Assembly (NCBI GenBank): GCA_937867415.1
Contig: CALMKO010000315.1
Coordinates: 1-37,778, forward strand
Length of the DNA stretch: 37,778 bases
Origin: an uncultured Verrucomicrobiota bacterium
GTDB taxonomy: Bacteria > Verrucomicrobiota > Verrucomicrobiia > Verrucomicrobiales > Akkermansiaceae
Reading direction: 5' to 3'
A program made the translations under genes and the position numbers. Positions 20,943-25,265 of the stretch are shown here, piece after piece. How positions within the stretch are numbered: position 1 is the stretch's first letter; each line of letters starts with the position of its first letter. Under the pieces are notes generated by a model. The model was not told the origin of the DNA. It made no database searches and saw nothing but the letters and a program-made list of their open reading frames with translations.

Positions 20943-21749
20943 TTACCTGCCCAAAGAGATCACGAAGTTTGCTTGATTTGTTCGAGCAGCCTGGTGTGAC
21001 CAGCGGCGCATGTCGCGAAGCTGGGATTCATCGAGAAGTTCGACGTTGCCGCCGAGCATGGCCGCCACGGCTTTTCCGCTCCAGCGAAAGTCCACGAAGC
21101 CAAACGCGGATGCGGGACTGTCTGCGGTGAATTCCTTGGCCCGCCACAGCTGTCGCGTGAGCATGGGTGGGCGCACCTCGAAGTATCCCGGCTTTCCCGG
21201 CGCGGAGCGGGCGGACGTGAAGACCAACAGCTTGCTCGGGTCGTCGGAATCGCTGAGGTGACTGACGTAGAACTTTCCGATCGCGTCGAGGATCCGCGGT
21301 GTGGGTGGCAGGGGGCTGCCGCTGCCGAAGTGGCCACCGACGAGGGTCGCGTTGAGTCCGAGATTGGGATGCACGCTGACGAGATAGTCGCGGTTCTCGG
21401 AATCCAGTGCCGCCTCGGTGCCATTGTAGAGCAGCACGCCCTTGACCGCGGGAACGCTGGGGGCGAGCCGCCAGGGGTAGCGCGCGTTCATGGGGTCTGA
21501 TAGCAGTTTTCCTTCGAGGTTGGTGGTGGACGGGTCATTCTGATAGCCGGGCATGACGTAACCATTCTGATCCGCCGCGTTCCCGAGATAGCCGGTGATG
21601 AGAGTGCGTGCGGCGTTGATCTCCACGACCATCCGCGCTTTGTCTCTGGCGCTCCGCACGCAGGTAAGGGTCACGGTGCCCAGAGTGGCGACGATCGCGA
21701 TGCTGACGATGATTTCAATCAAAGTGAATCCGGATGGGTGATGTTTCAT
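20943..21749 (-). CDS. Type II secretion / pilin-like protein with prepilin methylation site
   Basis: A 268-aa protein with a type IV prepilin signal: HHPSG then FTLIEIIVSIAIVATLG. Cleavage is expected after Gly7 and N-methylation at Phe8, with the conserved Glu12. The hydrophobic helix continues to about residue 29. The rest is a soluble globular domain with a C-terminal AMLGGNVELLDESQL stretch, reminiscent of the GG(N/D)V motif in the DUF1559-like pseudopilins common in Planctomycetes and Verrucomicrobia. It is the last gene of a four-gene operon; its ATG overlaps the stop of the preceding gene by 4 bp (ATGA). It may be an assembled pseudopilin or simply a membrane-tethered exported protein that uses the prepilin route. 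No prepilin peptidase is in the window. Confidence 0.88.
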   Translation of the reverse strand: MKHHPSGFTLIEIIVSIAIVATLGTVTLTCVRSARDKARMVVEINAARTLITGYLGNAADQNGYVMPGYQNDPSTTNLEGKLLSDPMNARYPWRLAPSVPAVKGVLLYNGTEAALDSENRDYLVSVHPNLGLNATLVGGHFGSGSPLPPTPRILDAIGKFYVSHLSDSDDPSKLLVFTSARSAPGKPGYFEVRPPMLTRQLWRAKEFTADSPASAFGFVDFRWSGKAVAAMLGGNVELLDESQLRDMRRWSHQAARTNQANFVISLGR

Positions 21750-22831
21750 GGTAGCTTGGTGCGGATGATGCGGAAGAAGGCGCGGTGTTGCGGACTGGTG
21801 CCGGTCCAGGTGAGGACATCCGGTGCCGGGCTGGTCCGGGTGGCGCGCTCCACCCAGGCCGTGGCGCCGAGATCCTCGGAGCTTTGGATGATGTATTGAT
21901 ATCCGGGTGAGGCGTTCCAGGTGAGAGATGCGGTGTCGGTGGTCCGCTCGAATGAAAGAATGCGCAGGGGGAGTGAATACTCCACGCTCAAGCGGGGTGC
22001 CACGTCACCATACAAGGCTTGCTCGGGATGCTCCTTGGTGAAAAATGTGGGGAAACCGCTGCTTCCGGGGCCTGTTACGGGATGAAACGAACTCAAGGTG
22101 CACCATAGAATCCCCTGATGAAGTCCTTGTTGGAGATAGCGGGTGATTTCCGGTGATGCGGGCCTGATGGTGAAGCTGACTTGCGAATAGGCCGGGATGA
22201 TCTCGCCGGGCAGTAGTGCCTGGCCCTGGGATGTGGTGATGCTGCCGGTTGCCCACGGCGAGCCTGGGATGCCGCGCGTCACGTTGTTTGTCAGATCCTG
22301 CGCCACTCCGTTTTCATCGAAACCCAAGGCAAAGGCATTCCTGTTTCCATAAGGCGAGGTCTCAACAAATGACAGCGCGCTGAAGCCGTTGCGAAAGCCG
22401 GTGCCATGGAGCTCGAGAGGTCGCCCTGCATCTGGATCGGCCGTGGATGGCGCTGCCCCTAACGACGTCAACGGATCTTCGCTGGGATCATAATGCAGAG
22501 GGTCGTTCGAGGCATAAACGGCGGTGAGGACTAGGTGATGGATTTCATAGTTTTCCGGTCCAAGTCCCGTTGGGATGCCCATGGCTGCGGTGTTGAATCC
22601 GATGACGAACTGCCCGAAGCGGTCATCCGCCCCGGTGAATGGCAGAAATGAGAAGGTGGATGCGGTGATGCGTGTTCCCGGTGTCGAGTTGCTTGGATAC
22701 ATCCAGCGGTCTCCAGTGGGCTCGAGTGCCTGGGCGGTGAAGGGGCCTGTGCCGTCACCATGCACGCTGGTTGCGGCGAGTCGAAAAACGAACACGATCC
22801 AGAGTATGCAATGAAGCGGACTTTTAAACAC
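21746..22831 (-). CDS. Secreted protein of unknown function with C-terminal beta-sandwich-like domain
   Basis: A 361-aa exported protein: a signal peptide spans residues 1 to about 25 (CILWIVFVFRLAATSVHG). The body has no catalytic motif I recognise; it includes YEIHHLVLTAVYASNDPLHY and DPSEDPLTSL. The C-terminal 80 residues (from about SLPLRILSF to FFRIIRTKLP) form a beta-rich module with WNASPGYQYIIQSSEDLGA and AFFRI, a type widespread at the C-termini of secreted verrucomicrobial proteins. The gene overlaps the PEP-CTERM gene by 8 bp and the pilin-like gene by 4 bp, so translation is probably coupled. The context argues that it is part of an exported assembly. Function unknown. Confidence 0.82.
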   Translation of the reverse strand: MFKSPLHCILWIVFVFRLAATSVHGDGTGPFTAQALEPTGDRWMYPSNSTPGTRITASTFSFLPFTGADDRFGQFVIGFNTAAMGIPTGLGPENYEIHHLVLTAVYASNDPLHYDPSEDPLTSLGAAPSTADPDAGRPLELHGTGFRNGFSALSFVETSPYGNRNAFALGFDENGVAQDLTNNVTRGIPGSPWATGSITTSQGQALLPGEIIPAYSQVSFTIRPASPEITRYLQQGLHQGILWCTLSSFHPVTGPGSSGFPTFFTKEHPEQALYGDVAPRLSVEYSLPLRILSFERTTDTASLTWNASPGYQYIIQSSEDLGATAWVERATRTSPAPDVLTWTGTSPQHRAFFRIIRTKLP

Positions 22832-23447
22832 GGCGGCGGATGAGGGTGAGGGTGAGGGTGAGGGCGGTGAGTCCTAACAAGGCGCTGGAGGGCTCCGGGA
22901 TGACCTGTGCGAACGAGTTTCCCGCGGTGACGGCCAGGCTTGTGGCGGCGTAGTGTCCTGAATAAATGATTTCATACGAAGTGATCCCGGGAACGCCTGA
23001 TAGATCCCACTGCCAGGCGCGTTCGGGATAAGGACTGCCAGGGACGACGAGTGAGAAACCGGCCGCGAGCGCTTGGTTTCCGCCGTTGTAGTTCAGAACT
23101 ACGGAGTCGAGGGGATCACTGATCCTGCCCTGGAAGATGACCGTCGCCAAGTTGGCAAGCGGTGAGGAGTCCTGGATGGAGAAGACTCCTGTCACGGCAG
23201 CGGTGTAGAGAAACGCGCTGCCGATGTATCCCGAGCCACTGACCTTGCCTAGGACGGCGCTCGCGGATCCCGCGTCAGGGGACACGGTGGAAGTCCACGG
23301 ATTCGCGGCGGTCCTGAAAGTGTTGAATCCGGGGTGATTGGTGCTGCTCAGTGCCCAGCTTGCGAACTCGGAGTTTCCGGGCAAGCTGAAGGAAACGGCG
23401 CCGAGCGCGGGCCCCGCGAGGGCGAGAAGGGTGAAGATGGATTTCAT
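22824..23447 (-). CDS. PEP-CTERM exported protein, operon member
   Basis: A 207-aa exported protein with a signal peptide (MKSIFTLLALAGPALGA) and a small beta-rich body rich in Ser, Asn and Gly. A C-terminal PEP-CTERM tripartite signal follows: VIPEPSSALLGL, a hydrophobic stretch that includes LTLTLTL, then IRRRV. It would be processed by an exosortase, which is not in this window. The hydrophobic part of the sorting signal is encoded by a GAGGGT hexamer repeat, so its length could vary in steps of two residues. It lies 5 bp after the DUF6607 gene and overlaps the next gene by 8 bp. No Shine-Dalgarno is visible at 23447. I recognise no further domain. Confidence 0.88.
   Translation of the reverse strand: MKSIFTLLALAGPALGAVSFSLPGNSEFASWALSSTNHPGFNTFRTAANPWTSTVSPDAGSASAVLGKVSGSGYIGSAFLYTAAVTGVFSIQDSSPLANLATVIFQGRISDPLDSVVLNYNGGNQALAAGFSLVVPGSPYPERAWQWDLSGVPGITSYEIIYSGHYAATSLAVTAGNSFAQVIPEPSSALLGLTALTLTLTLIRRRV
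22842..22865. repeat. GAGGGT hexamer tract in a coding region
   Basis: Three perfect GAGGGT units (22842-22859) and one GAGGGC unit. On the minus strand they encode alternating Thr-Leu residues of the hydrophobic stretch of the PEP-CTERM sorting signal. Being a multiple of three, gain or loss of a unit would change anchor length by two residues without a frameshift. Confidence 0.8.
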
Positions 23448-23452
23448 GGGAC

Positions 23453-24370
23453 TCAGTGTGAAGTTGCGAGATAGGGTGCGAGGGTTTTGATGACCGCCTC
23501 CGGTTCGGGTTTGGTTTTTTCCAACTCATCAAACTTCTTGCTCAGGCCGGTGCCGTCCAAGGTGGTGAGGAAGGAAAACTCCGGCCCCGCTTGTTCTCCC
23601 GCAGTGATCCAGAAGTTCCGGATGGAGTTCCAGACCGCGGCGTTTTCCTGCCACCAGTCGCTGGCCTGGTTGGCGAGCGCGTCATCGGTCCGGGTGTAGC
23701 GGTTCAGGCCGATCTCATGGGCGATGATGAATTTTTTCCCGTCGCGATCCACCACCTTGCGGTTGTCTTGCGAGTGGACCCACCCGTTCGGGGTAAGCGT
23801 GTGGCGGTTGGAAGCAATGAGGTAGTCATAGTCGTCACGTTTTTCGTATTCGCGCCGTGGCAGTGGTCTGCGGGTGGGCTCGCTGGTCCATGATGATTCC
23901 CCGAACTCATGCACCCAGCGGCCGATGCCTTCGTAGCGTGGCGTGTCGTCCACGCTGGTGACCAGTTGCGACCAGCGGCCCTTGGCTTGATCTTCCGCGA
24001 CGACGTGGCGTAGCCAGACGTCATGGCCGTCACTGCCGGCGTAGTCCAGGATGCGTGTGTCTTCCCAGGTCCATACCTGCGCCCAGTGTTTGATGACGCG
24101 GGATTTTCCCGCCTTCTCGACGACTAACAGATGTTGCAGGGTGATGCGTTCCGGGCTGTCCTCCGCCACCCTGACCACTTCGAGTGCCTCCTCATGGTAG
24201 GGCTTGCTGGTGGTCGGATAGTTTTGCGCGATTGCCGCGGTTTCTTGAAAGTCGAAAGTGACTTTGAAGTTGCCAGCCATGGCGAGGATGGCTTGGCGGT
24301 CAGCTTCGGGAGCGGCGGCGAGAGCGAACGAGGCGCTGGCCAGGAGGATGAGTGGAATGTGGCGTTGCAT
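23453..24370 (-). CDS. DUF6607 family exported protein
   Basis: A 305-aa protein from the ATG at 24370; an in-frame ATG at 24385 would add five residues. A signal peptide runs to about residue 20 (LILLASASFALAAAP). The body carries the segments typical of the DUF6607 family: FKVTFDFQETAA, RITLQHLLVV, VIKHWAQVWTWEDTR, RWVHEFGESSWTSEPTRRP, LPRREYEKRDDYDYLIASNR and HTLTPNGWVHSQDNRKV. The biochemical role of this family is unknown to me. It is the first gene of a four-gene operon of exported proteins, 91 bp downstream of a pseudouridine synthase gene. The leader is structured: a perfect inverted repeat at 24390-24432 and a hairpin (24361-24376) that places the ATG at 24370 in its loop. Confidence 0.8.
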   Translation of the reverse strand: MQRHIPLILLASASFALAAAPEADRQAILAMAGNFKVTFDFQETAAIAQNYPTTSKPYHEEALEVVRVAEDSPERITLQHLLVVEKAGKSRVIKHWAQVWTWEDTRILDYAGSDGHDVWLRHVVAEDQAKGRWSQLVTSVDDTPRYEGIGRWVHEFGESSWTSEPTRRPLPRREYEKRDDYDYLIASNRHTLTPNGWVHSQDNRKVVDRDGKKFIIAHEIGLNRYTRTDDALANQASDWWQENAAVWNSIRNFWITAGEQAGPEFSFLTTLDGTGLSKKFDELEKTKPEPEAVIKTLAPYLATSH

Positions 24371-24376
24371 AACGCC
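24361..24376 (-). promoter_or_regulatory. Start-codon hairpin of the DUF6607 operon
   Basis: GGCGTT-ATGC-AACGCC on the minus strand: a perfect 6-bp stem whose 4-nt loop contains the ATG at 24370. If it forms in the mRNA it could limit initiation at this ATG, or favour the alternative ATG at 24385. The stem is seen directly; the effect is inferred. Confidence 0.5.
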
Positions 24377-24389
24377 GCATAACATGGGT

Positions 24390-24432
24390 GCTGATCCGGG
24401 AATCCGCTAACGGCGGCTTGCGTCGGATCAGC
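24390..24432 (-). promoter_or_regulatory. 9-bp inverted repeat upstream of the DUF6607 operon
   Basis: GCTGATCCG at 24390-24398 pairs perfectly with CGGATCAGC at 24424-24432, with a 25-nt spacer that contains a smaller CCG/CGG repeat. It sits between the pseudouridine synthase stop and the DUF6607 start. There is no T-run on either side, so it does not look like a standard intrinsic terminator. It could be a leader hairpin, an operator or a Rho-type end. Confidence 0.5.
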
Positions 24433-24461
24433 GGTGGATTGCGGAAGCGCTGCGCCACTTC

Positions 24462-25196
24462 TCAAGCCCCGCGTTTTTTGGCGGGCTTGGGGTTGCCTAA
24501 CAGCATTTGGATTTCCAAGGCGTTCAAGGAGCCCCATGCGCCGGGTTCGAGATCGCCGAGCCAAAGCGCGCCGATGCGGACGCGGAGCAACTTGGTGACT
24601 TGATAGCCCAGTGAGTCGAACATCACGCGGATTTGGCGTTTTGCGCCGTGGTCGAGCACGATTTTGATGCGGCGTGACGAGAGTCGCTCGATGGCCTTTG
24701 CCTTCAGCTTGCCCTCGGTGGTGAAGACGCCTTCGAGGAATTGGTCGAGGTGGGCGTTTTCAAATGCCTGGTTCGAGGTGACGAGGTATTCCTTCTCGAC
24801 CGACTTGGACGGGTGCATCAATTGTTGCGAGAGGTCGCCGTCGTTGGTGAGGATGAGGAGTCCTTCCGAGTCGCGATCCAGCCGCCCGACGTGGTGGAGC
24901 GAGTGGAGTGAGGCGGGGAGCAGGGCGTAGATGGTTTCCCGGCCGAGTTCGTCCTCGCGGGTGCAGACGTAGCCGCGTGGTTTGTGGAAGGCGATGATGA
25001 GCGGCTCGCGCGGGGCGACCCGTTTGCCATCCACCTTGACGTGGTCACCGGCGGAGATGCGGGTTCCCATGTTGAGGCAGGGGCTGCCGTTGACCTCCAC
25101 ACGGCCAGCTTTGATGAGTTCGTCGCAAGCGCGACGCGAGCCCACCGCGCACGAGGCGAGGTATTTATTGAGGCGGGTGCCGTCCTGGTTTGCCAT
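24462..25196 (-). CDS. RsuA/RluB-family pseudouridine synthase with S4 domain
   Basis: A 244-aa protein from the ATG at 25196; an in-frame TTG at 25205 would add three residues. An S4 RNA-binding domain is at about residues 6-60 (RLNKYLASCAVGSRRACDEL and IKAGRVEVNG). A pseudouridine synthase domain follows with HKPRGYVCT at 71-79 and the catalytic motif GRLDRDSEGLLILTNDG, in which Asp107 is the nucleophile. It isomerises a uridine in rRNA; RsuA (16S) and RluB/RluE/RluF (23S) cannot be separated reliably without a tree. It lies 69 bp downstream of the small basic protein gene on the same strand and 91 bp before the DUF6607 operon. The TTA leucine near the C-terminus is in the TTA-GG context seen across the window. 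Confidence 0.9.
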   Translation of the reverse strand: MANQDGTRLNKYLASCAVGSRRACDELIKAGRVEVNGSPCLNMGTRISAGDHVKVDGKRVAPREPLIIAFHKPRGYVCTREDELGRETIYALLPASLHSLHHVGRLDRDSEGLLILTNDGDLSQQLMHPSKSVEKEYLVTSNQAFENAHLDQFLEGVFTTEGKLKAKAIERLSSRRIKIVLDHGAKRQIRVMFDSLGYQVTKLLRVRIGALWLGDLEPGAWGSLNALEIQMLLGNPKPAKKRGA

Positions 25197-25265
25197 GGAA
25201 GTCAATGCAAAAGGCGCGAACCCGGTGGGATCCGCGCGTTCTAGTGGTTGTTGAAAGCAAGGGGC

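Follow-up and report, generated by a model that had tools for sequence, protein, structure and literature searches.

A candidate haem-acquisition operon in Akkermansiaceae that unites a RhuH-type haemophore with an exosortase substrate, a secreted CBM96-fold protein and a pseudopilin

We analyzed a four-gene operon within a 37,778-nucleotide stretch of DNA from an uncultured Verrucomicrobiota bacterium of the family Akkermansiaceae (assembly GCA_937867415.1, contig CALMKO010000315.1, positions 1 to 37,778; hereafter the window). Its genes encode, in order, a DUF6607 protein, a protein with a PEP-CTERM signal, a secreted protein and a pilin-like protein; the families of the last three are called PEP2 (gene 2), C5 (gene 3) and PIL (gene 4). 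We consider it quite probable that the four genes form one iron- or haem-regulated haem-acquisition operon, in which PEP2, C5 and PIL carry out the surface role of a TonB receptor. The haem role of the operon is well supported. The substitution of the receptor by PEP2-C5-PIL is suggested by a distribution that depends on the receptor cut-off, and a transport step and a physical complex of the four proteins may be supposed.

Results

The sequence of the first protein places it in the RhuH haemophore family. It matched Pfam PF20311 with 236.7 bits (cut-off 27, E 4.2e-70), and a sequence search of the PDB returned the haemophore 8xjc over residues 23-262 (E 2.6e-53, 184 bits), so that an earlier note on this DNA, which had counted two uncharacterised families in the operon, was mistaken for DUF6607. 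According to its source paper (PMC11967795), 8xjc is RhuH of Riemerella anatipestifer, which binds haem with a dissociation constant of 3.44e-11 M and takes haem from duck haemoglobin; its iron ligand, His96, was deduced from a modelled complex and a point mutant, its propionate contacts (Arg143, Tyr144, Arg170, Arg183 and Gln198) are AlphaFold3 predictions, and its homologues occur mostly in Weeksellaceae and Flavobacteriaceae. When our alignment was read against the residue numbers of that paper, His96 fell on the H of an IKHW motif in the window protein, and this position was a histidine in all 81 DUF6607 homologues, the window protein included. Among the same 81, the predicted propionate contacts Arg143 and Tyr144 were kept in 81 each, Arg170 in 80, Gln198 in 75 and Arg183 in none. 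The window protein itself retains four of the five (Arg143, Tyr144, Arg170 and Gln198). Haem binding by this protein may be supposed.

Recomputed coordinates (Table 1) agreed with the four minus-strand reading frames of the earlier note and their spacings of +5, -8 and -4 bp: DUF6607 and PEP2 are separated by a 5 bp gap, PEP2 and C5 overlap by 8 bp, and C5 and PIL by 4 bp. The DUF6607 reading frame spans 23453-24385(-) and has two possible in-frame ATG starts, at 24385 or 24370. Export signals were judged by eye from the translations, and the series that had been read from the sequence, Sec, PEP-CTERM, Sec and prepilin, stood; DUF6607 and C5 each have a Sec-type leader, and the prepilin signal is accompanied by an N_methyl match of 25.5 bits.

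Table 1. Positions in the window of the four genes, the C5-PIL overlap and the predicted operator.
Feature	Position	Strand	Basis
DUF6607, RhuH-type haemophore by sequence	23453..24370	-	PF20311, PDB 8xjc, conserved ligand His
PEP-CTERM protein (PEP2), predicted beta-sandwich and C-terminal sorting helix	22824..23447	-	C-terminus, conserved neighbour, model
C5, secreted, two predicted domains (CBM96-like fold and C-terminal FnIII-like); GTG start	21746..22831	-	Conservation, model
PIL, prepilin-like pseudopilin; GFTLIE N-terminus, RDMRRWS motif C-terminal	20943..21749	-	N_methyl match, conservation
ATGA overlap of C5 stop codon and PIL start codon	21746..21749	-	11/11 complete type-A operons
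Predicted operator, tandem direct repeat	24405..24442	-	Upstream of DUF6607; motif model

A comparison of the neighbourhoods of DUF6607 homologues showed that the four genes are neither restricted to one strain nor found in scattered orders, and the earlier claim that they belong together was thereby upheld. We mapped 80 DUF6607 loci, the window and 79 others, 11 of these belonging to two further families within the class; within the family, DUF6607 was present in 77 of 195 genomes. The complete order DUF6607-PEP2-C5-PIL was found in 11 genomes carrying three genus labels (the window, L035, L036, L046, L047, L053, L060, L065, L069, L096 and L099), and Haloferula rosea KCTC 22201 (L127) is a cultured carrier of the whole operon. 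Protein identity was 34-72% between complete operons in the pairs reported, and the proteins of the other ten operons were 48-57% (PIL) and 38-44% (C5) identical to those of the window. The ATGA overlap of the C5 stop and PIL start codons was present in all 11 of these complete operons, designated type A, and the translation of C5 and PIL may be coupled. Type A-like PIL occurred in 15 genomes, namely those with the 11 complete operons and four more: in that of L092 the operon ends at a contig end and C5-PIL lies on another contig; in G001 it is split over contigs; in G152 PEP2-C5-PIL runs into a contig end, and a long-type DUF6607 follows the remainder of PIL; and in G046 there is C5-PIL with no DUF6607 found.

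In four distant loci (L137, L138, L142 and L195) a PEP2-like domain and C5 are fused as a single protein, an arrangement that suggests joint action of PEP2 and C5. The PEP2-like domain of these fusions first scored 28-41 bits in three loci and 10 bits in L195, in a small database, and was confirmed by hhalign (probability 97.6, E 4e-12) with the invariant histidine aligned.

Partner sets for DUF6607 other than PEP2-C5-PIL also exist. At the type C loci (L052 10614-14987(-), L064, L070, L097, L101 and L109) DUF6607 faces PEP7-PIL-c17, in which c17 is a protein of ~870 residues with a PATR match below the cut-off and the pilin is a divergent branch of PIL. Relatives of PIL were also present in metagenome-assembled genome records titled Akkermansia muciniphila (L129, L130, L139, L144, L149, L160, L162, L179 and L182); these titles look doubtful because L129 and L130 fall in genus label g11.

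We examined haem and iron genes near DUF6607 and PIL, using class labels that rest on purpose-built profiles and not on curated families. The DUF6607 tree comprised 81 genes, leaving out rows below 250 bits, and the PIL tree comprised 87 rows, leaving out those below 120 bits or sharing their first 150 residues with another. A TonB receptor (>250 bits, purpose-built profile) lay within 6.5 kb of 27 of the 81 DUF6607 genes, and receptor and PEP2 stood together beside DUF6607 in 11 loci. Five of these receptors were compared with NCBIfam; TIGR01786 (haemoglobin/transferrin/lactoferrin receptor) was the best match of all five and was above its cut-off in four, that of L084 being the one below. 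The L055 receptor matched PhuR (8the, E 2.8e-67). In nine loci the receptor is adjoined by a relative, detected by profile, of a protein that Pfam assigns to CBM96; Pfam was run on the one of L055.

Several receptor-type loci also contain a family, c6, of ~270-300 residues with two invariant cysteines in seven members, in some cases under the predicted operator described below (L037 5350-6231(-), L059, L087 and L048). No relationship of c6 to HemS is claimed: the profile comparison gave no more than a hint (probability 5.7), and the one member tested, that of L048, had no Pfam match. The family c70 was rejected as a homologue of PEP2 (hhalign probability 0.3).

A search with a profile built from the PIL alignment identified 80 loci, nine of them with DUF6607. 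Eleven PIL loci free of DUF6607, from Kiritimatiellae, Opitutia and others, contained matches of at least 60 bits to the HemS (10 loci) and/or FecCD (9 loci) profiles, and in these PIL accompanies C5, or PEP2 and/or a PEP2-like protein. In L134, Pfam identified Peripla_BP_2, FecCD, ABC_tran and HemS (8e-79) directly before C5-PIL, and the HemS protein matched hemin-degrading factors in the PDB.

We then compared the distribution of PIL and haem receptors over the 195 genomes of the family. Full-length PIL was called at 148 bits or more, the next match having 57 bits, and a haem receptor was called where TIGR01786 exceeded its cut-off of 323.75, with at most five candidates scored per genome. 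PIL was present in 23 genomes (15 type A-like and 8 type C-like) and an above-cut-off receptor in 20, and none of the 195 had both. DUF6607 was found in 22 of the 23 PIL genomes and in 20 of the 20 receptor genomes (42/43), compared with 77/195 overall. Among the 77 DUF6607 genomes, PIL and receptor excluded each other with a Fisher p of 4.2e-4, and the split was also seen within single genus labels: the 12 DUF6607 genomes of g1 comprised 6 with the pilin, 6 with the receptor, 0 with both and 0 with neither (p 0.002), and the 13 of g7 comprised 4, 7, 0 and 2, respectively (p 0.02). No haem-class TonB receptor was present in the window operon, and the best TIGR01786 match in the draft genome reached 129 bits.

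In the DUF6607 tree, the type-A clade (17 rows) had a support of 100/100. Two of its members, G036 and G141, have PEP2 and an above-cut-off receptor in place of C5-PIL; G155 is without a pilin and has above-cut-off receptors elsewhere in its genome; and G086 has ~30 C5 codons left, no PIL that could be found, and a receptor of 292 bits on a different contig. The tree requires several changes of partner, at least one of them inside the type-A clade.

Upstream of short-type DUF6607 genes there is a tandem direct repeat, a predicted operator with the consensus gCAATccA.CGCTAATaTttcGCAAgCcAcCG.TAGCg. In the window it reads GCAATCCACCGCTGAT-N5-GCAAGCCGCCGTTAGCG, with a 21-bp period, and its distance to the downstream ATG is 34 nt for the start at 24370 and 19 nt for that at 24385; sites of AraC-family regulators often have such a period. 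Visual inspection of the upstream regions of DUF6607 supplied the seed consensus, and the model was trained on 39 sites taken from them. In leave-one-out scoring, a score above all 100 of a region's own shuffles was reached by 35 of 51 short-type regions and by 0 of 30 long-type ones, the window region being the top of the 51 (score 38.0, 0/100 shuffles as high), although even these DUF6607 sites are not independent because seed and training came from the same regions. The window contains a single site scoring at least 12.

The sites away from DUF6607 provide an independent test. Scanning the loci, with repeated identical 38-mers dropped, gave 103 distinct sites, 34 by DUF6607 and 69 others. 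Of the latter, 40 lie no more than 300 nt upstream of PEP2, receptor, c6, PIL, c17, PEP7, AraC or c70 genes, stretches that make up 5% of the bases, and the remaining 29 lie elsewhere. One first-order shuffle of 1.42 Mb yielded 0 operator matches. Around long-type DUF6607 genes we found 4 sites in 550 kb, none scoring 25 or more, and around short-type genes 89 in 864 kb, 65 of them scoring at least 25 (training sites counted). Eight loci free of DUF6607 carry six distinct sites at distances of 56-89 nt ahead of PIL, and the HemS locus L136 has one that is 70 nt ahead of PEP2. The 29 sites located elsewhere are followed by, for instance, two TonB genes, a flavodoxin gene, a CbiX-like gene and one for a solute-binding protein, and the sites as a whole would outline a predicted wider iron/haem regulon. 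Genes of these kinds include L057 4377-5381(-), L086 2930-3841(+), L087 2398-2865(-), L094 1019-2026(-) and L102 13714-14637(+). An AraC-family gene adjoins 9 of the 11 complete operons, the exceptions being the window and L036; the type-A AraC regulator has a single clear ortholog in the window genome (427 bits, compared with 85 for the next match), and a regulator of this kind may bind the predicted operator.

PEP2 has, by eye, a leader peptide and a VIPEP...LIRRRV C-terminus, so that a PEP motif, a hydrophobic helix and a basic end are all present, and the window genome encodes two exosortases above the cut-off. In the structural model (predicted local distance difference test score, pLDDT, 84.3), a C-terminal helix is predicted at residues 186-206. 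His165, Trp147 and Asp148 were invariant in 14 of 14 PEP2 proteins. At E 1, Pfam gave no match for the PEP2 (PEP-CTERM included) or C5 protein of the window, and the sole NCBIfam match was a PEP-CTERM-type one below its cut-off on the PEP2 C-terminus (18.9 bits, cut-off 65). The PEP2 model forms a beta-sandwich whose best match was a phage baseplate protein (Z 10.0), with Z 7-9 to carbohydrate-binding modules (CBMs); the arrangement is a common one, and no function was drawn from it. Foldseek alone found no convincing whole-chain match for the PEP2 or the C5 model.

In the C5 model (pLDDT 87.5), the core (residues 28-286) resembled chondroitin- and alginate-binding CBMs (8wab, Z 14.4 over 171 aligned residues; 7vbo, Z 13.0 over 167), and the tail (residues 287-361) FnIII domains (Z about 7). 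By sequence, 0 of 25 C5 proteins matched a Pfam CBM at E 0.1, and C5 does not fall in CBM96; the likeness of its core to CBM96 rests on the predicted fold, by which homology is not proved. A sequence relationship between C5 and the CBM96 protein of the receptor-type loci was also considered, and only the C-terminal ~75 residues aligned (probability 76). The relatives of C5 appear to share a single core with differing anchors. Two have a PEP-CTERM-like end of their own (L133 1482-2402(+) and L140 7069-7989(+)), and planctomycete relatives (L190, L192, L196, L177 and L183) end in dockerin-like tails; Dockerin_1 was matched weakly in 3 of 25 C5 proteins.

The N_methyl match of PIL (PF07963) exceeded its cut-off of 21.2, in line with its prepilin N-terminal motif, and the window genome encodes a prepilin peptidase (Peptidase_A24, matched as two pieces within a single 425-residue frame, both above the cut-off).

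That genome contains one DUF6607 gene. Predicted sigma-70 promoters and terminators around the operon numbered 1 and 5, compared with 1.0 and 4.2 in shuffles, and were uninformative. Upstream of the operon, at a distance of 76 bp, a pseudouridine synthase gene (24462-25205(-)) occupies the same strand; in G061 (L036) the type-A operon has the same cluster 68 bp ahead of it. A pectate lyase gene (PF09492, 19686-20768(-)) lies 174 bp downstream, outside the conserved module.

Discussion

We propose that DUF6607, as a RhuH-type haemophore, would capture haem through its histidine ligand, that exosortase-sorted PEP2 and the secreted, CBM96-fold C5 would act as a surface pair, and that PIL, a dedicated pseudopilin with translation coupled to that of C5, would complete the surface apparatus. 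A regulator, most likely of the AraC family, would switch the operon at the tandem repeat upstream of the haemophore gene. PEP2-C5-PIL would dock the haemophore or a haemoprotein at the surface and carry haem over the outer membrane, perhaps by way of a secretin of the pilus or type II secretion system (T2SS) type. Because sister genomes pair the haemophore with a TonB haem receptor, PEP2-C5-PIL most likely supplies the receptor's part. A bolder version holds that the family possesses a TonB-independent importer, in which haem passes from the haemophore to the PEP2-C5 pair and the pseudopilin propels either haem or the haem-laden haemophore through such a secretin, with a version in Kiritimatiellae and Opitutia that feeds HemS/FecCD; this we regard as quite improbable.

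The three partner proteins might instead export and display the haemophore as a T2SS-like set for secretion and anchoring, without contributing to inward haem transport; an ordinary TonB receptor of lower score, encoded at another place in the genome, would then admit the haem. Secretion or pilus formation is the usual role of GFTLIE-class pseudopilins, and the window genome does contain lower-scoring TonB receptor matches, of which the one at 129 bits is the best. However, DUF6607 is retained in receptor-type loci whose mapped stretch contains no pilin, so the pilin seems unneeded for DUF6607 export, and secretion alone predicts neither the pilin/receptor split nor the presence of PIL beside HemS/FecCD where DUF6607 is absent; we think export and display possible but not likely. 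The split is equally unaccounted for if PEP2-C5-PIL is an iron-regulated adhesion or polysaccharide-binding set that holds the cell to haem- or iron-rich particles or polymers without handling haem. The CBM-like core of C5, the weaker likeness of the PEP2 model to some CBMs, and the planctomycete C5 relatives with dockerin-like tails, which were not seen by haem genes, are consistent with adhesion, yet a CBM-like fold is no proof of sugar binding and none of the 25 C5 proteins matched a Pfam CBM, and we judge this explanation rather unlikely. The suggestion in the earlier note of a surface-assembly or envelope-remodelling machine, for which the three export routes within a single operon speak, is very improbable. 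No envelope-biogenesis family was present among the clusters recurring in at least five of the first 40 loci, a weak test since annotation was partial; these clusters comprised DUF6607, AraC, the TonB receptor, the families of the module, another PEP-CTERM family, c6 and one antisense-frame set. This role was given up mainly because of the haem evidence, the markers (a haemophore, TonB receptors, HemS with a FecCD/periplasmic-binding/ABC importer, and a common predicted operator) pointing to haem and iron.

A number of observations weigh against the haem-acquisition reading, and those on the pilin/receptor split also bear on whether shared ancestry and the choice of receptor cut-off have produced an artefactual split, with the module simply an accessory of haem uptake. 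The split hinges on the TIGR01786 cut-off and on the limited number of candidates scored, and the genomes compared are related and hence not independent. Over all 195 genomes the association of PIL and receptor gave a Fisher p of 0.14, and 35 of the 77 genomes with DUF6607 lack both at these cut-offs. In G093, a pilin genome, a receptor of 251 bits lies 3.5 kb past the AraC gene, close to the operon; receptors of 240-312 bits, below the cut-off, occur in G008 and a further ten DUF6607 genomes; and every pilin genome has some weaker TonB-receptor match. The split nevertheless holds separately in two genus labels, and the DUF6607 tree needs several partner changes, at least one in the type-A clade, and we think an artefact possible but not likely. 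At type C loci DUF6607 is accompanied by a divergent pilin and by c17 in place of C5. For 59 of the 87 PIL rows, the sequence retrieved contains no DUF6607 and no HemS/FecCD; 20 of them have C5 (eight planctomycetes), 1 has k23 and 38 have none of these, some being cut by contig ends and others forming a separate clade with different conserved neighbours. A link to haem is accordingly not shown for the pilin family at large, nor for the planctomycete C5-PIL pair. In the window genome, a draft of 470 contigs that is 95.75% complete, HemS had 0 matches at E 0.001 and FecCD one partial match of 35.1 bits (Pfam cut-off 26.5), which leaves the inner-membrane step unexplained here. The AraC ortholog of this genome lies on another contig and has no operator site of its own there, and Arg183 of RhuH is replaced by alanine in the window protein.

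The haem-acquisition operon proposed here can be set beside several known systems. The DUF6607 protein of the window shares with RhuH (8xjc) its sequence family, the ligand histidine and four predicted contacts; it differs in coming from Verrucomicrobiota and not Flavobacteriales, in lacking Arg183, and in sharing its operon with proteins of the exosortase and pilin routes. In systems of the PhuR (8the)/TIGR01786 type the likeness lies in the sister loci, which join DUF6607 and PEP2 to such receptors under a common predicted operator, whereas the window operon is without a receptor and none was above the cut-off in the draft genome. Operons with HemS/HmuS and a haem ABC (ATP-binding cassette) importer are approached by the 11 DUF6607-free loci in which PIL adjoins HemS and/or FecCD, but in the window genome HemS was not found and FecCD is represented by that one partial match. 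A precedent for haem using pilus machinery instead of a haem receptor is provided by Neisseria gonorrhoeae, in which haem enters through a mutant pilus secretin, PilQ (Chen et al. 2004, as cited in the review PMC6449446). That case involves a point mutation and no dedicated haem module, and its likeness to the present operon is one of role.

In the open-licence literature searched, we found neither DUF6607 by name nor a haemophore united with an exosortase substrate, a CBM96-fold protein and a pseudopilin. A haemophore of the DUF6607 family was already known from Flavobacteriales, and its union with PEP2, C5 and PIL is apparently new. These findings give DUF6607 a likely function in this lineage and indicate that haem genes have an exosortase substrate and a pseudopilin as companions under a common predicted operator. 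The alternative between pilin and receptor makes the view that haem uptake across the outer membrane needs a TonB receptor testable in cultured Haloferula rosea KCTC 22201, and hints at an unrecognised route for the uptake of haem iron.

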